A stretch of 64,000 bases of DNA from Vibrio bathopelagicus (GTDB taxonomy: Bacteria; Pseudomonadota; Gammaproteobacteria; Enterobacterales; Vibrionaceae). Both the position numbers and the translations under genes were made by a program. The notes beneath the pieces are model-generated. The model was not told where the DNA came from, did no database searches, and was given only the letters and a program-made list of their open reading frames with translations. The stretch spans positions 3,100,001-3,164,000 of the forward strand of contig NZ_CP062500.1 of the NCBI RefSeq assembly GCF_014879975.1, given 5' to 3'. This document shows positions 1 through 10,679 of this stretch, in pieces (position 1 is the first letter of the stretch; each line of letters starts with the position of its first letter).

Positions 1-28
1 TAACTCTTTGATAGCGATAAGCTTAATG

Positions 29-47
29 ACTCATACCATTTAAAGTA
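29..47. repeat. Candidate left attachment-like repeat of the mutS-proximal element
   Basis: ACTCAT, three bases, then ATTTAAAGTA. The same two blocks, separated by two bases, occur at 8072-8088 just before mutS, beyond the 5' end of the integrase. The pair would bracket an element of about 8 kb containing all the accessory genes. The match is short and has an indel, so it may be chance. Confidence 0.3.
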
Positions 48-123
48 GACGCATTTTCCAGTCGACGTATAAGCAAGACCACATTTTACATTCGGTATAG
101 GGTTGTGGCCTACCTTCCCTTAT

Positions 124-1413
124 TTACACCGTTTGTGATTGTACAAGAGCAGACTCACGAATCTGCTTCTCTTTGAAACTCGATAATATAAACATCATCA
201 TGTATCCAGAGCACAATGCGGTAATGATCGCCACGACATTGTCAGTAAACGCCGATATTACATAGAACATAATTACTAGCGTTGCGATACCCGCGAGGCG
301 TATAAATAGACTCGTTTTAAAGTGCCCGTTTGCTTTAATGTAGGCCAGTTGGTAGGCATTCAGCATCATAAAAATGAAGAACATCGAGAAGTGGAACAGT
401 ACTGGTACCGCTCCGATATATTCAGCAGGGAAAAGCGCTTCTACAAGGTTCGAACCAAACAGCAGCATCGTCAAGAAAAACGCCCCGCTGACAACAAATG
501 ACAACTTAAACACCCATCGACGGATAAGCTGAATCTCAGAGAATTCACCATTTCGTACCTTCACAGACAGTTCAGGCAGAACAAAGCGGTAAATTGGGAA
601 TACGAATAACATCGTCATGTATGTGAAGACCGGACGCACTACAACCTGAAAATCGCCCAGTTCATCGACGCTGAAGTAGCGTATAGTCAACAACACAGCA
701 ATGTAAATCATAAGAATGCTTGCTCCTGCTTCGAGTGTTGCAGTAAAGCTTTTTTTCACATAACCGTACATGTCTGAATTAAGCTGCACAGGCTTAATTG
801 GCAGGGTCGATATCTCTTTTCTTCGGCTGATATACATATAGAGCGCCGTTATTAACGAAGATATGGTCAAACCATAGAACAACGCCGTTAACGCACTGAA
901 TCCAGCAATATAGTAAGCGAATAGAAACAAAGCCACGTTCAACGCAGGATCAAGCCAAGTGGTACGGTTAGTGATATCGTACAAACGATACATGGCAACT
1001 AAATTGGCAAAGTAGAGCTTAAGCCCCAAACCAAAAATGATGCCCACCAACTGTAAGTATTCGACACCAATATCTAAGCTGTGCTTGATGTAAGGAATCA
1101 CCCCACCCCACGTCATTAGAACGACGAAAATAAGGGTAAAGCGGAAGATATTGATAATATCGATATCATTCTTAGTTTGAGAATACGTCACGACCATGGA
1201 TGAGCGGAAGCCCGTCATCAGAATCATGGACAGAGAAATGATATCAACGACAGTATGAAAGAGTGCCAAATCGGCTTTTGCTACCCACCCCGCAAGCCAG
1301 ATCTTGAAGGTAAAACCTATCGCAATGCTGAGTAATGTTGCCCATATACCGGAAAGAAACGCCTTCTTTACCTTGGTGACTGATTGTGAATGCATTTCGA
1401 ATACTACTGTCAT
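124..1413 (-). CDS. Polysaccharide flippase-like multispanning membrane protein
   Basis: A 429-residue, very hydrophobic protein with roughly a dozen membrane segments along its length. The pattern of paired helices with short charged loops, and an N-terminal half starting near AFLSGIWATLLSIAIGF, resembles Wzx/MATE-like polysaccharide exporters, which move lipid-linked sugar units across the inner membrane. This is a fold-level resemblance; the substrate is unknown. I place the start at 1413 because AAGGGGA lies about 8 nt upstream. A longer frame from a GTG at 1473 has its purine-rich stretch directly abutting the start, which is too close. No glycosyltransferases are nearby, unusual for a flippase, so it may be cargo of the adjacent element or the edge of a separate locus cut by the window. 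Confidence 0.6.
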   Translation of the reverse strand: MTVVFEMHSQSVTKVKKAFLSGIWATLLSIAIGFTFKIWLAGWVAKADLALFHTVVDIISLSMILMTGFRSSMVVTYSQTKNDIDIINIFRFTLIFVVLMTWGGVIPYIKHSLDIGVEYLQLVGIIFGLGLKLYFANLVAMYRLYDITNRTTWLDPALNVALFLFAYYIAGFSALTALFYGLTISSLITALYMYISRRKEISTLPIKPVQLNSDMYGYVKKSFTATLEAGASILMIYIAVLLTIRYFSVDELGDFQVVVRPVFTYMTMLFVFPIYRFVLPELSVKVRNGEFSEIQLIRRWVFKLSFVVSGAFFLTMLLFGSNLVEALFPAEYIGAVPVLFHFSMFFIFMMLNAYQLAYIKANGHFKTSLFIRLAGIATLVIMFYVISAFTDNVVAIITALCSGYMMMFILSSFKEKQIRESALVQSQTV

Positions 1414-1680
1414 AGGTGAGTTCCCCTTATGGTATTGAAAACTATTCTCATTTACAACAAAACTCTGTTGCACCTCCTACGACTCTAGGGAAAAGTATGC
1501 TAGCCAGCAAAATGCGCTACTACCTGCTCTCGCCCCCACATCGCATCAGCCTATGGATATATGTTATCTATAAAAACGCTTAACGCTATCCTAAAGACGA
1601 ATCACTGTTCCTAGGGGGCAAGGCATAAATACGACCGCACAGCCTGCTAGCGGTCTGCCAACAAACTGTGCTCTATCTTC

Positions 1681-2121
1681 TTACTCGGCTTCTGCCGCTT
1701 CAACGGCTAACAAGTCTGCCATGTCATTACCCTTATTACCTGAATGAGCTTTGACCTTTCTTACCTCTACGTATTTCTGTGAACGCAGTTCGTCGATTTG
1801 TTGCCATAGATGGCGGTTCTTTACTGGCTTTTTGTCTGACTTACGCCAACCTTTATCCTTCCAGTTATCTAACCAACCGTTATACCCCTTCACACAAAAG
1901 TCACTGTCTGAGTAGATGACATCGCCATCCTGCGCATACTCTAGACCTTCGATTAAGGCCATTAGCTCTAATTCTGCATTGGTGGTACTGCGTCTGATAG
2001 TGATGCCATCTTGATACTCTAGTTCACCGTGCTCATTAAAGGCTGCAATACCAATTCCACCCTGTGTGCATCCGTGTTGATTGTTTGGTGCTGCGCCATC
2101 TACGTAAATTGAAAAACTCAT
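1681..2121 (-). CDS. Accessory ribonuclease HI
   Basis: A 146-residue RNase H domain with nothing else attached. Expected catalytic residues are visible: D8 in IYVDGAAPN, E52 in NAELELMA, D72 in YSDSDF, H126 in VKAHSGNKG and D136 in NDMADLLA. RNase HI cuts the RNA strand of RNA-DNA hybrids. The domain begins at the ATG at 2121, with AGAGAGAAA upstream; the open frame extends about 55 codons further but that part covers the alpA-rnh gap and is not RNase H-like. It lies about 80 nt downstream of the alpA gene in the same direction. Vibrio normally has its rnhA beside dnaQ, so this is probably a second copy carried by the element, perhaps for primer or hybrid removal during its replication. Confidence 0.85.
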   Translation of the reverse strand: MSFSIYVDGAAPNNQHGCTQGGIGIAAFNEHGELEYQDGITIRRSTTNAELELMALIEGLEYAQDGDVIYSDSDFCVKGYNGWLDNWKDKGWRKSDKKPVKNRHLWQQIDELRSQKYVEVRKVKAHSGNKGNDMADLLAVEAAEAE

Positions 2122-2200
2122 TTTATTTCTCTCTCTAATTGAAAAGGGAGCCCTCAATGGCTCCCTGTTGATGTGGTCAGTATGTTTGCTGTAAATTGGA

Positions 2201-2389
2201 TTATTCTTGGCTCTCTCGTAATCCCAAGCATGATTCCATCCAATCATCAATCTCGCCATCAACCCAAGCAACAGCTCTATCTCCAAGGTTGACTGATAAT
2301 GGAAAGTTACCGTTATTCATTTTTCGGTAAATCGCTGAACGACTTAAAGCCGTTTTCTCCATCACTTCTTTTAACTTTAGAAATCTCAT
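2201..2389 (-). CDS. AlpA-family phage/island transcriptional regulator
   Basis: A 62-residue protein typical of AlpA: an N-terminal MerR-like winged helix (LKEVMEKTALSRSAIYRKM), the loop NGNFPLSV, and the ending VAWVDGEIDDWMES. AlpA proteins are small DNA-binding activators of island functions; in E. coli CP4-57, AlpA promotes excision through the integrase. AGGAG lies 10 nt before the ATG. It sits between the three YagK/YfjJ-like genes and the RNase HI, all on the minus strand and likely one transcription unit. The pairing of alpA with a yfjJ-like gene matches CP4-57-type elements. Confidence 0.9.
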   Translation of the reverse strand: MRFLKLKEVMEKTALSRSAIYRKMNNGNFPLSVNLGDRAVAWVDGEIDDWMESCLGLRESQE

Positions 2390-2458
2390 TGGGAATGGTC
2401 TCCTGTATTTTGTATATACCCATGAGATAAGCCACCGCTGTAAAAAAGTGCGGTGGGG

Positions 2459-3058
2459 TTAATCCTCGCTAGAGCCAAAACAGTAATGCTCTTCTTCCCA
2501 TGCCTCAGCTAAACGGCTCATGCGATGAAATACATTGTTCTTTACTACGCTACTTTTACTCTTGCAGCGCGTCCCTAAGCCGTAGTTACCTCGGTCGTTA
2601 AATAATACCAATGAACGCTCTTTGCCTTCGTAGTGGCTCTGTACAGCCTCTTGCCATGCCTCTTTAAGGTGGTTGGCTAATTGATTACGTTTATCCCAAC
2701 AGATAGCGGAGCCAAAGTACTGGTTGTAATCAAGCAAGAGTATGACTTGGTAATTGTGTGAGGGGGATTTATCGGCTCGCTTACGCCACGAGCAATAGAG
2801 TGAGTCTGTATTAAGTTTCTTTTTAAGCTGGTGGATGTAGTCATTGATGATGGTTAAATCGGTGTCTGGGTGGTCTTTAGGAAGGTATAGCCCCAAATGC
2901 ATGACTAACGTGAACTCAAACTGCTCTAGTGCCTGTTCAAAGAGGTTGGTCATACTCGTAAGGGCAGATTCATACAGCCCGTGCTCACTGTAGATCACGG
3001 GATAATCGTTAAAGGTGGTGGAATGGGTTATTGCTGGTGTATGGGGAGTGTGGGGCAT
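2459..3058 (-). CDS. YagK/YfjJ (inovirus Gp2-like) paralogue 1, degenerate motifs
   Basis: A 199-residue member of the YagK/YfjJ C-terminal (inovirus Gp2-like) family, and the most diverged of three adjacent paralogues. Shared landmarks are the LVMHLGLYLP strand (residues 51-60), the YQVILLLD strand (103-110) and the ending FHRMSRLAE. Where paralogue 3 has His-Tyr-His, this copy has N102-Y103-Q104, and where paralogue 3 has YLAK it has RLAE. If the family acts through HUH-type chemistry, this protein should be catalytically dead and could serve as a regulator or DNA-binding partner. The family assignment is from pattern recognition; the nuclease reading is inference. The ATG at 3058 follows AGG by 9 nt, inside a leader hairpin arm. 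Confidence 0.7.
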   Translation of the reverse strand: MPHTPHTPAITHSTTFNDYPVIYSEHGLYESALTSMTNLFEQALEQFEFTLVMHLGLYLPKDHPDTDLTIINDYIHQLKKKLNTDSLYCSWRKRADKSPSHNYQVILLLDYNQYFGSAICWDKRNQLANHLKEAWQEAVQSHYEGKERSLVLFNDRGNYGLGTRCKSKSSVVKNNVFHRMSRLAEAWEEEHYCFGSSED

Positions 3059-3062
3059 GAGA

Positions 3063-3097
3063 CAGTACCTATGGCTAGTTGAATGACATAAGTACTG
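3063..3097 (-). repeat. Leader hairpin at the ribosome binding site of Gp2-like paralogue 1
   Basis: CAGTAC at 3063-3068 pairs with GTACTG at 3092-3097, with one mismatch and one more pair inside. On the transcript the 3' arm contains the AGG used as ribosome binding site for the gene ending at 3058. It is the weakest of three equivalent leader hairpins. Confidence 0.45.
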
Positions 3098-3118
3098 CTT
3101 GTGGTGTGATTTTTTAGG

Positions 3119-3799
3119 TTATCGACGACTGCAACCAAAACTCGTACTACGGTTATCGCCGTGTTTGGTAATGGGCTTCGCGAGACGACTCATTCGATAG
3201 AAGAACTCGTTTAGCTGTAACGGGAACGTTTCTGTGTCGGAGAAAAGCTCAAAACCTTCATTGTTAGGGGAATACGCTAACCCTGAGCATCGTTGGTTAG
3301 AGTGAGCTTCCATCACCCTATCCCATGTCTTTCTTACTTTTTTGTAGAGAAAACGCCCCCAACTATCTCGACCTGTTCCTAAGCTTTGGAAGAGCTCTCG
3401 ATCAAAGAGCAAGATAAGATGATACTGGCTAGTGGAGTCACACTCCCTCGCCCAGATATAGCGGATCACCGTTTGTGGATGTTGATAGGTGTTATTGGCG
3501 TATTTGTCCTTACAGAGTTCATTAGTCTCCAATTCTAAAGTATGAAAGAAATGGGCAAACACCGTTAGGTAATCGCCCCTGAAGTGACTCGGTAGATTTA
3601 GGTTGAGGTGAACAGCAAAGAGTCTCGGATATTGATTTAGTGCTTCAGTCAGTACTTGATCGATATCCTCCAAATACTCAAGGATAAGACCACTCTCGTG
3701 GTAGTAGAGTGGCTTTCCATTAAACGTTCGGTCATGAGTGACGGTGAGGTGGTTAGACGCTTCTGAGTGATGTTGAGTGGCGTTGAGCTGGTTTGGCAT
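3119..3799 (-). CDS. YagK/YfjJ (inovirus Gp2-like) paralogue 2, partly degenerate
   Basis: A 226-residue paralogue of its two neighbours, with the same layout: FAVHLNLNLP strand (residues 61-70), IWARE (115-119), QYHLILLFD (125-133), a conserved W159 helix and the ending YRMSRLAK, TKHG, FG. The His-Tyr-His of paralogue 3 is Q125-Y126-H127 here, and the YLAK tyrosine is R205. It is therefore intermediate between paralogues 3 and 1. Family members occur in P4-like islands and filamentous phages, where Gp2 is the replication endonuclease. The ATG at 3799 is preceded by AGGAA, which lies in the 3' arm of an 11-bp perfect hairpin. Loss of motif residues suggests a non-catalytic role, but this is inferred. 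Confidence 0.75.
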   Translation of the reverse strand: MPNQLNATQHHSEASNHLTVTHDRTFNGKPLYYHESGLILEYLEDIDQVLTEALNQYPRLFAVHLNLNLPSHFRGDYLTVFAHFFHTLELETNELCKDKYANNTYQHPQTVIRYIWARECDSTSQYHLILLFDRELFQSLGTGRDSWGRFLYKKVRKTWDRVMEAHSNQRCSGLAYSPNNEGFELFSDTETFPLQLNEFFYRMSRLAKPITKHGDNRSTSFGCSRR

Positions 3800-3802
3800 T
3801 CT

Positions 3803-3837
3803 AGTTCCTGTGGTTTGTTGTTAATCCCACAGGAACT
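3803..3837 (-). repeat. Leader hairpin masking the ribosome binding site of Gp2-like paralogue 2
   Basis: AGTTCCTGTGG (3803-3813) and CCACAGGAACT (3827-3837) form an 11-bp perfect inverted repeat around 13 nt. In the minus-strand transcript the second arm carries AGGAA, the ribosome binding site of the gene starting at 3799, so folding would hide it. It could equally be a DNA-level site for the Rep-like neighbours. Confidence 0.65.
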
Positions 3838-3858
3838 GTCACTACCGTAATTTTTAAA

Positions 3859-4539
3859 CTACTTATGACTATGGCCGAAATTCCGCCTACCGCTACCAAA
3901 GTGCTTCGTATCTTCTTTGGCTAAATAACTAATGTGCTTAAATAGCTCATCAAACGCGTCGTCAAAGTCATCAGAGTTACGGTTCAAGCGATGAATAACC
4001 ACGCTGTCACTATTCTTCTTCTTTGAGAAATGTACTAATCCATTTGCCTCTTCATAATCAACACCGACGACTCTCGCCCATGCCTCCACGATAAAGGAGC
4101 CTAAATTATCATTTGGTGTTTGAGTTTGTCCCAACCAGTTAAATCTATCCTTATTGAACATGAGTAATAAGTGATAGTGGTCATTCATTGAGGTAGAGCG
4201 CTCTCTAACCCAAACATTTCGAACCTTGCAGGGATGAACCCTACCACCCTCTTGTCTTTTTTTTCGCTTGCCAGAGTAAGCTATCTGAGACTGTAACGAG
4301 CGGATAAAGTCAGTGATGACATTGCCACACTCTTCATTGGCTCTTAGCTTGGGAAATCTCAAATCTACACGGATAGCCATAAGACGAGGATAGTCATCTA
4401 ATGCTCGTTCAATGGTGGCGTGCATTATTTCTAAGTAGTCGAGGTACAGTGGACCGTGTGCCGTCTGGATAGGATGACCAAGAAAGGTTTTCTTAATGGT
4501 GAGTCTAAGGTTTTTGTTTTTTCGAGAACGTACATTCAT
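3859..4539 (-). CDS. YagK/YfjJ (inovirus Gp2-like) paralogue 3, intact His-Tyr-His
   Basis: A 226-residue family member that keeps all apparent motifs. Landmarks are LMAIRVDLRFP (residues 53-63), VWVRE (109-113), H121-Y122-H123 in DHYHLLLMF, and Y205-L-A-K208 in HISYLAK. A His-hydrophobic/aromatic-His pair followed about 80 residues later by Tyr-x-x-Lys recalls the HUH motif and catalytic tyrosine of rolling-circle replication initiators, which fits the inovirus Gp2 relationship. That it nicks DNA is inference. It is the first gene of the minus-strand run (paralogues 3, 2, 1, alpA, rnh) and lies next to a 0.76-kb AT-rich non-coding stretch that could hold its promoter and origin. The N-terminal 15 residues are strongly basic. 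Confidence 0.75.
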   Translation of the reverse strand: MNVRSRKNKNLRLTIKKTFLGHPIQTAHGPLYLDYLEIMHATIERALDDYPRLMAIRVDLRFPKLRANEECGNVITDFIRSLQSQIAYSGKRKKRQEGGRVHPCKVRNVWVRERSTSMNDHYHLLLMFNKDRFNWLGQTQTPNDNLGSFIVEAWARVVGVDYEEANGLVHFSKKKNSDSVVIHRLNRNSDDFDDAFDELFKHISYLAKEDTKHFGSGRRNFGHSHK

Positions 4540-4541
4540 TG

Positions 4542-4573
4542 CTATCTATTCCTGTGTTGAGGTTCATAGATAG
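4542..4573 (-). repeat. Leader hairpin before Gp2-like paralogue 3
   Basis: CTATCTAT (4542-4549) and ATAGATAG (4566-4573) form an 8-bp perfect inverted repeat with a 16-nt loop. In the transcript the loop ends in CACAGGA, the likely ribosome binding site of the gene starting at 4539, and the second arm fills the gap to the start codon. Confidence 0.55.
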
Positions 4574-5202
4574 GTCGATGCCGTTATTTATAATGGTGTA
4601 CTGTGAGTCACTTGGTGTGACTCAGGGATATGTGATGATGTAGTCGTGTACTAGGTATGGTAGATGTTTAGTTATTAACGTAATAATACTAACCAGACAG
4701 ACATATCCTCCTTCCCCCGATCAAGGTTTAAAGCGTTTCAATTAGGCTTTCACACTATTCAAACCAACAACAAGCATACAAATAATCAACAACTGATGGT
4801 GCATTTTTATAGGAATGAAATACCCCTTCGCTTTCAAGTTACATGATGACAACTGAATACAAACAAAGGTGATAGGCTCATTTAACACTCCGGGTTATCT
4901 CAAATAACGCTCCTTCATCAACTAATCAAACTGATTCACTCCTATCATCTCTATTTCATGTTTTTATTTGAGAAGTTGGATGACGTACTCCCTTAAAGTT
5001 TGATTTTATACCAAAAGAAAGCAGTACTAATTTTTGCAAGACGACACTTCTCAACTACATGCTCAAACAAATTTTTCATAGAAGAAATAACAATAGATTA
5101 CTGTAATACAAAACACCAAAATGTAGAACTTCTTAAAATAAACCTTATAGCACCATGATCAAGTATAGGGCCCACCCCATCTCAATCAATGAAAATTCTT
5201 GC

Positions 5203-5214
5203 CGAAATATTTCG
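5203..5214. promoter_or_regulatory. Perfect 12-bp palindrome, possible operator
   Basis: CGAAATATTTCG reads the same on both strands. It ends 12 nt before a TATAAT (5227-5232) and about 83 nt before the start of the orphan gene at 5298, a position suited to an operator. No regulator is identified. Confidence 0.35.
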
Positions 5215-5297
5215 ATTTTTCTTGTCTATAATTTGTAATTTCCAACTGAAAAATATAATGTATTTCTTTCGAAAATGCCTACGAGAGTGCATGACTT

Positions 5298-6476
5298 ATG
5301 AAAGGTCCTAGCTATCGATTTACCCTTGTGCGAGATACGGCTGATAACACTCAGCTTCGCTTTTACATAAGCTACCTATACTTCAAACAAAACAATCACC
5401 TATTAAATGGCTATGACTTATCTGTTATGCAACAGCGCGGTCTCAAGCATCACTTCACTGAAATTGTTGCTGAAAAACTAGACATTGAAACAGAAGTGTT
5501 AGAGAACGGAAGTTTCAGTCTTGATGTGAAGGAGCAGCTACAAACACTCTTGAATGACCTACTTTACATAGCAAAAAAATGCATAATTCCAAATTTCTAT
5601 ATATCTTGGCTCAACAGTACAAGGGCGGATTTTTTTCTTTACTCACTAATTAAACTATCCATAAAAAGCAACATACTGATAACAAGCAACCGTTATTCAA
5701 AAATTTATATAGGTCAGGTTTTTTGGCCTAAATTTAACTCTATTGGACACCAAACACGGGAAAGTAAGCTGCGTGATATTAAACGGAAAAGAATTGTTAA
5801 GGATAGGGAGCGTGAAGGAAAAGCCTGCGATCCTGAGCTGGTTGATCAGCTAGTCGACAAACTTATAGTAAAAGATAAAGAAGAAATAACTAAGATCCAA
5901 AAGGAGTATGAACCATACATAGAAGCCTTAAGGCCAATAGAACACTATGACCCGGTAAATGACCCGAATGCTATAGAAAAAATGATTGATCACTTCCATA
6001 CCATTGCTTTTACAAAAGAAGCATATCGTTCTGAAAACATACGTTTCATCACGCAAGCTAAGCGGCTCTATCAGCAATGTTATGGCAAAGTGCCTGCATC
6101 TCGAGGCATTATGAAAAATGATAGTAGTGAGCTGATTAACAAAACCTACGAAAGACTTATTAAACAATACAGTATCCTTCGATTTTATCCGCCAGTTGAA
6201 AACCCTACCATTAGGCAATACTGCATTATCTCATTTCTTGACATCCTCTATACTACGACGAAGAAAGAAGAATTTGAAGATCGGTTCAAACTGATAGGAG
6301 ATAAGTTTTCCTTAGACAAGAGTGAGTGCAAAGACTTCACTCTAACCTTTTCTCAAAAGCAATGGGATATGCTTATCGGTATAACTGAATCAAAGTATCC
6401 ATCAAAAATCAAACAAGCTCTCAATAAAATAATCAGGCAAGAATATAAGAGTCTGAAAAAGACGAAAGAAGATTAA
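5298..6476 (+). CDS. Unrecognised 392-residue element-encoded protein
   Basis: I do not recognise this protein. It is rich in Lys, Ile, Asn and Tyr and its DNA is clearly AT-richer than the core genes, as expected for transferred cargo. Visible parts: an N-terminal region with beta-like patches (residues 1-160), a highly charged helical stretch at about 160-205 (RESKLRDIKRKR, VKDREREGK), a helical middle, and a C-terminal segment from about 346 (DFTLTFSQKQWDML, then PSKIKQALNKIIRQEY). That segment has the strand-helix-helix order of ribbon-helix-helix DNA-binding domains; this is a weak inference. There is no signal peptide or membrane segment. It stands alone, divergent from the Gp2-like run and convergent with the integrase. 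Candidate roles are element regulation or a defence-type cargo function; neither is shown. Confidence 0.75.
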   Translation: MKGPSYRFTLVRDTADNTQLRFYISYLYFKQNNHLLNGYDLSVMQQRGLKHHFTEIVAEKLDIETEVLENGSFSLDVKEQLQTLLNDLLYIAKKCIIPNFYISWLNSTRADFFLYSLIKLSIKSNILITSNRYSKIYIGQVFWPKFNSIGHQTRESKLRDIKRKRIVKDREREGKACDPELVDQLVDKLIVKDKEEITKIQKEYEPYIEALRPIEHYDPVNDPNAIEKMIDHFHTIAFTKEAYRSENIRFITQAKRLYQQCYGKVPASRGIMKNDSSELINKTYERLIKQYSILRFYPPVENPTIRQYCIISFLDILYTTTKKEEFEDRFKLIGDKFSLDKSECKDFTLTFSQKQWDMLIGITESKYPSKIKQALNKIIRQEYKSLKKTKED

Positions 6477-6584
6477 CCATTTAAATGTCAGATGCAAATG
6501 GCAACGAGCAGAGCAGCCCTCAAGGTTAAAACTTATAGCGGTAAAGGGGATAAATATAGGCATCTCCCCCTTTACCCTACGACA

Positions 6585-7919
6585 TTATACCACTTCGGGA
6601 AACTGAACAATATTAGTCTTAACGTTTACTATCGAGTCTAACTCATCAGCCCAGCGCTGTAGCCACTCTCGACACTCAGCTTCATAGCGGTGCAAATTAT
6701 ATGTTCCCTCAATGCCTTTAACACTATGCCCTAATACTGCTTCAGCAACTCCCGTAGGGCATCCCATACGTGCTAATTCCGTTCGTACTGTTCGTCGTAG
6801 ATCGTGAGGAGTCCAAAGCGGCATATCAATCATTAATCCATCTCTACGCATTCGCCACGTATACTGAGTTAGTTGTTTTTGAACTACGTGAGAACCTCCT
6901 TTAGAAGTAGAAAAAACATAGATAGATTGAGGGTATGATTTAACCTCTTTCCATTTACGTAACCACTGAACAGCTTGAGAAGGCAGCTGAACATAACGAG
7001 AGTTACCATTTTTTGTTTCAGTTAAATAAATGGTGTTCTTATCAAAATCAATCTGCTGCCACTCTAAGTCGCAAACCTCTCCAGTACGACAGCCTGTCCA
7101 CAGCGTCATTCGGAGAATACCTCTTATGTTTTTAGAAAAACTCGAATTCGGCAACCATTTGATAAATCTAGATAACTCAGAATGGTCTAACACTCTCTTA
7201 CCTTTATTATTAGTCAGCTTAACCTTACTCTTCTTAAACTTATTAATAGCCAACAGCGCTGGATTGACAAAGTTTTCAGGGAGATAATCCATACCAATAG
7301 CATACTCATAGGCACTGGATAGCTCTCGTAACACAGAGCCTGCTTGTACTGGCGCACCTCTATCAATGATCCCTTGAATTAAATACGTAATGTCACTTTT
7401 GCCGACTTCCATAACAGATCTATCTCCAAGAAGAGCGACAATATCAACATACAAGGTTCGTCTAACTTCTTTTTGTCCTTTTGCCTTACGAGCTCCTGAG
7501 ATCACTCCACCAGAAGAAGTAAATCTGTCTTGAATATAATTTTCTAAATAATGATCGATCACATCTTTGAGAGTAATGCTATTAACACGCTCAGTCTTTA
7601 ATAACTTACGCCGCTCTTGTTCTTGCCTTTCTAAGTCAGCCTTTGGACATATTCCCCGCTCTCTTATGGCTTTCATTTCGCGAAGCTTAATGCGAGCTTG
7701 CTCAAGTGACATATCAGGAAAGGTACCTAGCTTAATCTGTACAAGTTTACCACCTGACTCTGGGCTTCTATAGCGATAGGTAAAAGTTTTCCTGCCCGTC
7801 TTTCCACAGGCTATTCTTAGCCCTCGGTTTTCTCCAGTATCAGACAAGACACCTTTCTTAGCCGTTAGCGCCTCAATTGTCTTATTCGTTATAGATTTGA
7901 TATTCTTCTTATCAGCCAT
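6585..7919 (-). CDS. P4-type tyrosine recombinase / integrase
   Basis: A 444-residue integrase. The N-terminus (about 10-95) is the DUF4102-type arm-binding domain (LSDTGENRGLRI, KLGTFPDMSLEQAR), the middle (about 115-225) the SAM-like core-binding domain, and the C-terminus the catalytic domain with the full set R278 (GCRTGEVCDLEW), K303 (ETKNGNSR), H372 and R375 (PHDLRRT), H398 (LGHS) and Y407. All six residues are present, so it should be active. It inserts or excises the neighbouring element at its attachment site. It faces away from mutS across 174 bp, which puts the attachment site most likely in that gap. Unlike most P4-type integrases there is no tRNA or tmRNA beside it. Confidence 0.95.
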   Translation of the reverse strand: MADKKNIKSITNKTIEALTAKKGVLSDTGENRGLRIACGKTGRKTFTYRYRSPESGGKLVQIKLGTFPDMSLEQARIKLREMKAIRERGICPKADLERQEQERRKLLKTERVNSITLKDVIDHYLENYIQDRFTSSGGVISGARKAKGQKEVRRTLYVDIVALLGDRSVMEVGKSDITYLIQGIIDRGAPVQAGSVLRELSSAYEYAIGMDYLPENFVNPALLAINKFKKSKVKLTNNKGKRVLDHSELSRFIKWLPNSSFSKNIRGILRMTLWTGCRTGEVCDLEWQQIDFDKNTIYLTETKNGNSRYVQLPSQAVQWLRKWKEVKSYPQSIYVFSTSKGGSHVVQKQLTQYTWRMRRDGLMIDMPLWTPHDLRRTVRTELARMGCPTGVAEAVLGHSVKGIEGTYNLHRYEAECREWLQRWADELDSIVNVKTNIVQFPEVV

Positions 7920-7991
7920 TTATCGGGGTCCCTTATCGCAATATTGTGCGGCGATTGTATTATCTAGTATAGGAAATAAAAAAACTACACT

Positions 7992-8020
7992 TTTACCTAC
8001 ACTAATGATCGCGCTGTAGT
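7992..8020 (+). promoter_or_regulatory. Weak candidate mutS promoter in the integrase-mutS gap
   Basis: TTTACC (7992-7997), a 17-bp spacer and TGTAGT (8015-8020) match four of six positions of each sigma-70 box. No better promoter is apparent between the integrase and mutS. If the element ends at 8088, this promoter would belong to the element and not to native mutS. Confidence 0.25.
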
Positions 8021-8071
8021 GAAATCCTTTGATACTTAGTGGGACTTGTTGAAGATCCCATAAATTCATAA

Positions 8072-8088
8072 CTCATTGATTTAAAGTA
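8072..8088. repeat. Candidate right attachment-like repeat, next to the mutS start
   Basis: ACTCAT, two bases, ATTTAAAGTA; partner of 29-47. It ends 5 nt before the mutS ATG at 8094, so a recombination event here would exchange the whole mutS upstream region. Confidence 0.3.
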
Positions 8089-8093
8089 ACTTA

Positions 8094-10679
8094 ATGCAAA
8101 AAGAAACCACTAAAAACAAAGACATAAAAGCAGCGCATACACCTATGATGCAGCAGTACCTAAAACTAAAAGCAGAAAATCCAGAAATTTTGCTGTTCTA
8201 CCGCATGGGAGATTTCTACGAGCTTTTCTACGATGATGCTAAAAAAGCCTCTCAACTCCTCGATATTTCGCTAACCAAGCGTGGCTCTTCAAATGGTGAG
8301 CCTATTCCTATGGCTGGCGTTCCATACCACGCCGTTGAAGGTTACCTTGCGAAGTTAGTGCAGTTAGGCGAGTCCGTAGCAATTTGTGAACAGATTGGTA
8401 ATCCAGCAACTTCAAAGGGCCCGGTTGATCGCGCTGTCGTAAGAATTGTGACACCCGGCACCGTGACCGATGAAGCATTGCTTTCTGAGCGTGTTGATAA
8501 CCTGATTGCCTCCATTTACCACCACAATGGTAAGTTTGGCTACGCGACGCTTGATATTACTTCTGGCCGATTCCAACTATGTGAGCCGGAAACCGAAGAA
8601 GCGATGGCGGCAGAGCTACAAAGAACATCACCACGTGAACTGCTATTCCCTGAAGATTTCGAACCCGTTAATTTGATGGCAAGTCGTAATGGCAATCGCC
8701 GTCGTCCGGTATGGGAATTTGAATTAGATACAGCAAAGCAGCAACTCAATCAACAATTTGGTACTCGTGACCTAGTTGGCTTTGGCGTTGAAAGCGCAAA
8801 ACTTGGTTTATGTGCTGCGGGTTGTTTGATTCAATACGTAAAAGACACGCAACGTACTGCTCTTCCACACATCCGTTCACTCACAATGGATAAGCAAGAT
8901 CACTCAGTGATCCTTGATGCGGCTACTCGCCGTAATCTGGAGATCACCCAAAATCTTAGTGGCGGCACAGATAACACCTTAGCCGAAGTGCTTGATCACA
9001 CCGCGACTGCTATGGGTAGCCGTATGCTTAAGCGTTGGTTACATCAACCAATGCGTAATATTTCAGCTCTTGATCAACGCCTAGATGCGATTGGTGAAAT
9101 GAAAGATTTGGCTCTGTTTACTGAGTTACAACCAACGCTGAAACAGATCGGTGATATCGAGCGTATTCTTGCACGTCTTGCCCTTCGCTCTGCACGTCCA
9201 CGTGATATGGCACGACTTCGCCAAGCAATGGAATACTTACCAGAGCTTGCAGAAACTCTGACGCAACTTAAGCACCCATACCTGACTCAGCTTGCTCAGT
9301 ATGCATCTCCTGTGGATGAAGTATCAGAGCTGCTTGAGCGTGCGATCAAAGAAAACCCACCGGTGGTGATCCGCGATGGTGGCGTGATAGCTGAAGGCTA
9401 CAACGCAGAACTCGATGAGTGGCGCGACCTTGCGGCTGGTGCAACCGAGTTTCTGGATAAGCTTGAGCAAGAAGAGCGTGAACGTCACGGTATCGACACG
9501 CTTAAAGTTGGCTACAACAACGTACACGGTTTCTTCATTCAAGTTAGCCGTGGACAAAGCCACCTTGTGCCACCACACTATGTTCGCCGTCAAACACTGA
9601 AAAATGCAGAACGCTACATTATTCCTGAGCTGAAAGAGCACGAAGACAAAGTTCTCAGCTCTAAATCGAAAGCCCTAGCTATCGAGAAGAAGTTGTGGGA
9701 AGAGTTGTTTGATTTGTTACTGCCTTATCTAGAGCGACTACAAAACATTGCTTCTTCAGTGTCTCAACTGGATGTTCTACAAAACTTAGCTGAACGTGCA
9801 GACACCCTTGATTACTGTCGTCCAACCATGACTGAGTCTGCTGGTGTACAAATTCAGGCGGGTCGCCATCCCGTTGTTGAACAAGTTATGGACGAACCGT
9901 TTATTGCTAACCCTATCGACCTTAATGATCAACGTAAGATGCTGATCATCACAGGTCCAAACATGGGTGGTAAGTCGACCTACATGCGTCAGACTGCACT
10001 CATTGCACTGATGGCTCATATCGGTTGCTATGTTCCAGCAGAAAGCGCGACGATTGGTTCTATCGACCGTATCTTTACGCGTATTGGCGCCTCTGATGAT
10101 TTGGCTTCAGGCCGTTCAACCTTCATGGTTGAGATGACAGAAACCGCGAATATTCTGCACAACGCAACACCAAGTAGCCTGGTGTTAATGGATGAAATCG
10201 GTCGTGGTACCAGTACTTACGATGGCCTGTCTCTGGCTTGGGCAAGTGCAGAGTGGCTAGCTAATCAAATCAATGCGATGACACTATTTGCAACGCACTA
10301 CTTTGAGCTAACTGAGCTACCAAACCAAATACCAACCTTAGCGAACGTACACTTAGATGCGGTTGAACATGGCGACAGCATTGCCTTTATGCACGCAGTT
10401 CAAGAAGGTGCGGCAAGTAAATCTTACGGCCTTGCGGTTGCCGGATTGGCTGGCGTACCTAAAGCAGTGATCAAAAACGCACGTGCGAAGCTGACTCAGC
10501 TAGAAGCATTGAGTATCGACTCTCCGACATCAAAACCAAGTGGCGTTGATATCGCGAACCAACTGAGCCTGATACCTGAACCAAGTGAAGTAGAACAAGC
10601 ACTCGCGAATGTTGATCCAGATGATTTAACCCCTCGCCAAGCATTAGAAGAGCTCTACCGCTTGAAGAAGTTGCTTTAG
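8094..10679 (+). CDS. mutS: DNA mismatch repair protein MutS
   Basis: An 861-residue full-length MutS. The mismatch-reading Phe-x-Glu is F41/E43 in GDFYELF, the connector and clamp domains follow, and the ATPase shows Walker [10 protein letters not shown] from residue 621 and Walker [17 protein letters not shown]. MutS dimers bind mismatches and recruit MutL to start repair. The ribosome binding site before 8094 is weak (TAAAGTAA). In Vibrio mutS commonly follows recA and a CinA-like gene; here an integrase and accessory element lie directly upstream, so promoter and expression may differ from strains without the element. It converges on rpoS across a shared terminator. Confidence 0.99.

Follow-up and report, generated by a model that had tools for sequence, protein, structure and literature searches.

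The closest described system is that of Vibrio splendidus 12B01, in which a 27-kb element at the same mutS motif as the one reported here supplies the start of mutS and excises in about 1 in 10,000 genomes, an event that deletes 2 bp, turns the cell into a hypermutator and carries the two bases off in the circle (Chu et al. 2017, PMC5296598). That paper reports clean excision in Escherichia coli 536, Pseudomonas putida F1 and Burkholderia multivorans CF2, no detected excision in Enterovibrio norvegicus FF-162, and hundreds of Beta- and Gammaproteobacteria with mutS elements of this type; since three other species excised cleanly, the scarring is said there to be something that "might be specific" to 12B01. 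In Streptococcus pyogenes the SpyCI/SpyCIM1 island (PMC3430984; see also PMC4689407, PMC4129442) is reported to occupy the 5′ end of mutL, where integration usually silences the gene and excision restores it, and in strain Manfredo an island promoter is reported to drive mutL. At the fhlA-mutS hotspot of the Enterobacteriaceae, which includes Salmonella pathogenicity island 1 (SPI-1), a published study sees no phage integration site (PMC7232297). Passages of three further papers, on a V. cholerae mutS deletion (PMC5603330), a V. parahaemolyticus insert list (PMC4359782) and a recA island (PMC4334540), had no bearing on a mutS element. Here we describe a further member of the published mutS-integrated mobile elements, found in Vibrio bathopelagicus (genome G000) in a 64,000-nucleotide stretch of contig NZ_CP062500.1, positions 3,100,001 to 3,164,000, hereafter the window. 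An initial sequence-only reading had proposed an independent Gram-negative counterpart of the S. pyogenes switch, which is right in kind but not new, given the published 12B01 element. We read the locus as an integrase island that lies inside the first codons of mutS, strands the native start and supplies a new one, and whose predicted excision would likely either restore or frameshift the gene, and we put the probability of this at roughly 0.85.

The right-hand boundary was located by comparison with element-free relatives. Against the closest of these, the V. bathopelagicus mutS begins to align only at window position 8136 (codon 15). When window positions 8060-8700 were used as query against 148 Vibrio genomes, with 30 loci displayed, the element-free genome G011 matched at 97% from 8136, some distant Vibrio genomes matched from slightly before it, and the two that matched from further upstream (G024 from 8062 and G017 from 8101) turned out to carry elements themselves. 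The empty site of the element-free relatives among those 30 loci is GTGAAAGCCGATCAAAAACATACTCC(T/C)ATGATGCAGCAG. The left boundary lies outside the window, where a host flank at C1:3074850-3076370 is 98% identical to G011 (L004 1-1523) over 1,523 bases. This flank holds a CinA/PncC-like gene and recA (both named by eye), followed by the native GTG and nine codons of mutS, and then passes into foreign DNA as CATACTCCT-GATGCATTAG. The G011 match ends at G000:C1:3076350, 23,651 bp before the window begins, and homologous element sequence runs 23.7 kb leftward up to this junction with the native start, giving an element of 31,786 bp of which the window holds the right quarter (8.1 kb). The orphaned native start, GTGAAAGCCGATCAAAAACATACTCCT, is thus 31.8 kb from the body of mutS, which restarts at 8136 as CATACACCT-ATGATGCAG, with the right junction at 8136-8151 within the gene. 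The element therefore enters mutS at the HTPMMQQ motif, host codons 7-11 (HTPMM) being the insertion point.

The native start, MKADQK, now runs into a short dead end, and the 14 codons that the element supplies in its place are the same in two other carriers, G024 and G169. A pattern for the native start (at most three mismatches) is found in 132 of 227 Vibrio genomes; the other 95 include the five carriers and natural N-terminal variants and are not a count of insertions. The earlier proposal that the element replaces the region upstream of mutS agrees with these alignments, which had been put forward as a refuting test: upstream regions differ in element-free Vibrio, and no native mutS start is left in front of the gene. 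With both flanks mapped and joined in silico, removal of the element would also bring the host's own mutS start back, as had been anticipated.

The ends themselves had been placed elsewhere, at two copies of ACTCAT-N(2-3)-ATTTAAAGTA. The repeat is real and occurs at just two places in the window, 29-47 and 8071-8088 (the second copy starts one base before the 8072 first given for it, and stops 5 nt short of the ATG), with 0 occurrences expected in 100 shuffles. That it is not expected by chance would suit an element lying beside mutS and bounded by the two copies, but the copy at 29-47 is interior, homologous element sequence extends another 23.7 kb to the left and mutS itself contains the right junction, so we regard this arrangement, along with the 8-kb size it implied, as refuted.

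Integrases of this kind (E <= 1e-60) were found in five of the 227 Vibrio genomes and in each lie against mutS, in elements of 31,786, 34,100, 25,180, 4,936 and 6,866 bp. Those of G000, G024 and G169 are 98-100% identical and share 52-53% identity with those of G120 and G017; there are therefore two integrase lineages in Vibrio, and both keep the new mutS start in frame. The three large elements (G000, G024, G169) have a common backbone consisting of the integrase, a 392-aa gene, three YagK/YfjJ genes, two AlpA-like genes, RNase H, a RadC-like gene and others; their cargo is not the same. Those of G017 and G120 have in common the integrase and a left-end gene. Beyond Vibrio, the order-level set has the integrase in 11 of 394 genomes, eight of them outside the genus with seven of these adjoining mutS, and the family-level set has it in 6 of 329, the single non-Vibrio genome (G635) again carrying it at mutS, for a total of eight out of nine non-Vibrio genomes. 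Two side observations concern such carriers. In G537 (L128, L117) and G584 (L116, L123) the element-borne and the stranded host mutS starts encode matching amino acids, and in G537 the two are identical over the 60 bases displayed; the end repeat of these elements therefore covers the start codon. Contig CAKZMU010000003.1, assigned to an uncultured Lacinutrix metagenome-assembled genome (L057 1-302), has an 83% identical integrase and a Vibrio-like mutS start with the new start codon in frame, with MTKNTTKNKELKTS, and its placement in Lacinutrix is probably a binning error. More distant searches returned two integrase relatives in viral contigs, at 25% identity only, and 28 loci in the genome-contig collection, 26 of them distant (22-37% identity) and without a mutS match.

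In E. coli, integrase DNA is present in 20 of 5426 genomes, with at least 80% coverage in 13, and in four of the six regions that were opened the integrase is at mutS, between mutS and ygbA. The junction of strain ET490 is present at 80% or more in 12 of the 5426 genomes; one further listed match, strain 405, was set aside as element-free on inspection. The native K-12 region is found in one place at 80% or more in 5186 of the 5426 and with any match in 5369, leaving 183 genomes between those counts as candidates only. Two of the 183 were opened (AH65 and mussel_type_A_ST536; L138 and L139), and in both the break in mutS falls several codons deeper into the gene (HTPMMQQY) and the integrase was not seen; in one of them an annotated retron Ec48-type effector lies alongside. 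These strains may show a different integrase family using mutS.

The left end of the V. bathopelagicus element is without the AT of the target (CATACTCCT-GATGCA, as against CATACTCCTATGATGCA). All five Vibrio left ends read ACTCCT-GATGCA and are two bases short in the same way, as are those of G635 and G526, making seven of the 16 left ends mapped. Not counted among the 16 are G384 (left end not found), G521 (not at mutS), L057 (left end beyond the contig) and L138 and L139, the last two both retaining the bases; the left ends of G372 and G537 are on different contigs from their integrases and were assigned through the mutS-like start. Because two bases are missing, mutS would be thrown out of frame by a crossover in the shared word GATGCA. 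For all five Vibrio elements, in silico joining of the flanks left mutS open when the crossover was placed in the shared CCT and, when it was placed in GATGCA, gave a frameshift with an early stop after 18-38 codons; G635 and G526 were scored from their left ends alone. An argument based on the wobble base adjoining the junction (CCT on both sides in G169, CCC in its nearest four relatives) is too weak to use. The seven scar-prone left ends amount to about four lineages, given the near-identity of the three G000-like elements, and they look like a property of a branch.

The other nine left ends (G372, G383, G458, G584, G537 and all four mapped E. coli elements) retain both bases, so that either crossover position would leave an intact mutS. 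This is what would be expected of a gene-sparing insertion, in which the element uses a conserved landing site, re-supplies the start and excises cleanly, any effect on mutS levels being a by-product. The supplied N-terminus often resembles that of the host: in E. coli MSIIENLDS, MSTIENLDS, MSLNDNVNLDS and MSTPENFDA stand against the MSAIENFDA of K-12, and those in G584 and G537 are identical to the host's. The clean excisions published for E. coli 536, P. putida F1 and B. multivorans CF2 (PMC5296598) point the same way. We consider this a serious contender, at somewhat less than even odds for the present locus, given that seven of the 16 left ends, this one included, are without the two bases and share the larger word GATGCA, which would produce a frameshift, and that excision in 12B01 is described as leaving just that scar.

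On the reading we prefer, the integrase would excise the 31.8-kb island, perhaps with help from an AlpA-like protein, and the position of the crossover would decide the outcome: in CCT the native mutS would be restored, and in GATGCA the gene would be left two bases short, as in 12B01. The island would then likely hold mismatch repair hostage, since its loss by the GATGCA route would give mutator cells. A stronger version, in which the left end has been kept two bases short under selection in the branch that includes Vibrio, so that the host depends on the element to stay non-mutator, is one we advance with considerable doubt; on it the trait, found in two Vibrio integrase lineages, another genus of the Vibrionaceae and one further family, would be conserved and selected and would be no accident of 12B01. 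What is new here is that scar-prone left ends occur in all five Vibrio carriers and two other genomes, as opposed to the suggestion in PMC5296598 that scarring might be specific to 12B01. The left end, with or without the two bases, may thus serve as a sequence-readable predictor of strains that would turn mutator on loss of the element, and the E. coli carriers ET490, EC476, VREC0864 and STEC434, being of the clean type, offer a contrast.

The integrase diverges from mutS across 174 bp, as first noted, placing it well within the 300 bp taken as adjoining. Its R278, K303, H372, R375, H398 and Y407 are invariant across five aligned relatives and fit the catalytic set of tyrosine recombinases, in line with the six catalytic residues counted at the outset. 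Whether the element could be a frozen relic, immobile and with mutS now simply driven from its end, has to be asked in view of the existing 4.9- and 6.9-kb elements with little cargo, the stops in several order-level integrase frames (nine internal ones in G584, where the mutS start is nevertheless open) and the undetected excision in E. norvegicus FF-162 (PMC5296598). We judge this unlikely for V. bathopelagicus, where the integrase is full length with its presumed catalytic residues. The integrases of G000 and G169 are moreover 99.8% identical, while their hosts' nearest mutS relatives and their cargo differ, suggesting recent movement.

Several points weigh against the reading of an excisable island that controls the start of mutS. 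The integrase-mutS region would drive mutS transcription while the element is integrated, and we place the promoter there because the region is short and divergent and because of the published case, but scanning 7500-8300 for consensus promoters gave 0 sites against 1.9 expected by chance. The weak promoter proposed earlier at 7992-8020 overlaps ACTTTTACCTACACTAA; an integrase arm site seems the better reading of it, since ACTTTTACCTACACTAA recurs 72 bp inside the left end. A relative of the integrase in G521 is located away from mutS, the remaining two of the six opened E. coli matches are integrase fragments elsewhere, and G017, one of the five Vibrio carriers, has a mutS broken for a separate reason. 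If excision proceeds through the CCT crossover, it would be clean and no mutator would result. Furthermore, the route reported for 12B01 does not readily produce left ends that are two bases short: a circle carrying the two bases into an intact mutS should yield a left end that has them, and all five Vibrio left ends are without. The circles that transfer may be products of the clean crossover, strand exchange in the short overlap may be resolved unevenly, or the ends may have been shortened and then kept by selection. Finally, excision was measured in 12B01, with which we compare by its published description (PMC5296598), and is predicted here from the sequence.

The coordinates of the features in the window are collected in the table below. 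The motif ACCTAYACT was additionally found near both ends of all five Vibrio elements. Searches of Pfam and NCBIfam gave no match for the 392-aa conserved gene or for the 449-aa cargo open reading frame (ORF). A second small gene that looks AlpA-like adjoins attL (L036 2625-2849, minus strand) and is 97-99% conserved in G024 and G169, with no match in NCBIfam.

Features of the mutS-integrated element and adjoining mutS in the window
Feature	Position	Strand	Evidence or remark
Right-hand quarter of the element	1..8135		Remaining 23,651 bp at G000:C1:3076350-3100000, outside the window
Cargo gene, 449-aa ORF	124..1473	-	Absent from the G024 and G169 elements
Element-borne RNase H gene	1681..2121	-	PF00075, E 1e-31
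AlpA-family regulator	2201..2389	-	PF05930, E 1.1e-24
YagK/YfjJ C-terminal domain protein	2459..3058	-	PF11726, E 8.8e-33
YagK/YfjJ C-terminal domain protein	3119..3799	-	PF11726, E 4.3e-46
YagK/YfjJ C-terminal domain protein	3859..4539	-	PF11726, E 5.2e-51
Conserved element gene, 392 aa	5298..6476	+	95-99.7% identical in the G024 and G169 elements
Tyrosine integrase, 444 aa	6585..7919	-	Pfam Phage_integrase PF00589, E 4e-27
Divergent integrase-mutS intergenic region, 174 bp	7920..8093		The mutS promoter and ribosome site would need to lie here
Candidate integrase arm-type site ACTTTTACCTACACTAA	7989..8005	+	Second copy 72 bp in from the true left end
TAACTCATTGAT	8069..8080	+	Also present 99 bp in from the true left end; overlaps the second copy of the ACTCAT repeat
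Element-supplied start, ATG + 14 codons, replacing native MKADQK	8094..8135	+	Comparison with element-free relatives
mutS with element-derived N-terminus, 861 codons, open	8094..10679	+	ORF
attR CATACACCT-ATGATGCAGCAGTA, coding for HTPMMQQY of MutS	8136..8158	+	Left counterpart CATACTCCT-GATGCATTAGTA at G000:C1:3076350

Further cargo lies to the left of the window, in a stretch at L002 81-16037 (G000:C1:3080081-3096037), from which nine proteins were compared with PADLOC. QatA, QatB, QatC and QatD were matched (E 1e-205 to 2e-56), as were a Drt8 reverse transcriptase and its PDDEXK partner (E 1e-139 and 9e-62) and type I restriction subunits R, M and S. By its protein matches the element is a defence island, and in a further Vibrio mismatch repair takes its start signals from a mobile element laden with phage-defence genes. 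Near the left end there is also a DarG-like antitoxin gene (L036 3031-4107, NCBIfam E 4e-124); a clear DarT was not identified next to it here, and G169 has a 202-aa ORF at that place. In G017, at C1:521073-522600 (L093 2073-3600), mutS is missing its 3′ end, and ORFs resembling an IS66-type transposase lie between it and a shortened nlpD-like gene, with no rpoS ORF listed in that interval; this strain may be without both MutS function and RpoS.

Among the known systems, the SpyCI islands resemble the present element in occupying the 5′ end of a mismatch repair gene and differ in that their target is mutL, whereas mutS is the target here and is open while the element is integrated, so that excision may break the gene. 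The SXT/R391 elements likewise integrate into a 5′ end, that of prfC, and re-supply the gene with a start; they are conjugative and use another gene and integrase. Islands such as IMEVchUSA3 target dusA, are mobilised by IncC plasmids and have no described mutator effect (PMC8409611). As at the fhlA-mutS hotspot described in PMC7232297, islands gather beside mutS, but the E. coli elements found here enter mutS itself. The correspondence is closest with 12B01, whose description has the insertion at HTPMMQQ, the orphaned host start upstream, the element-supplied start and the integrase adjoining mutS. The two are also of similar size (27 kb there and 31.8 kb here), the 2-bp frameshift reported there is predicted here from the ends, and the V. 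bathopelagicus element differs in carrying a cargo of its own, namely QatABCD, Drt8 and type I restriction.

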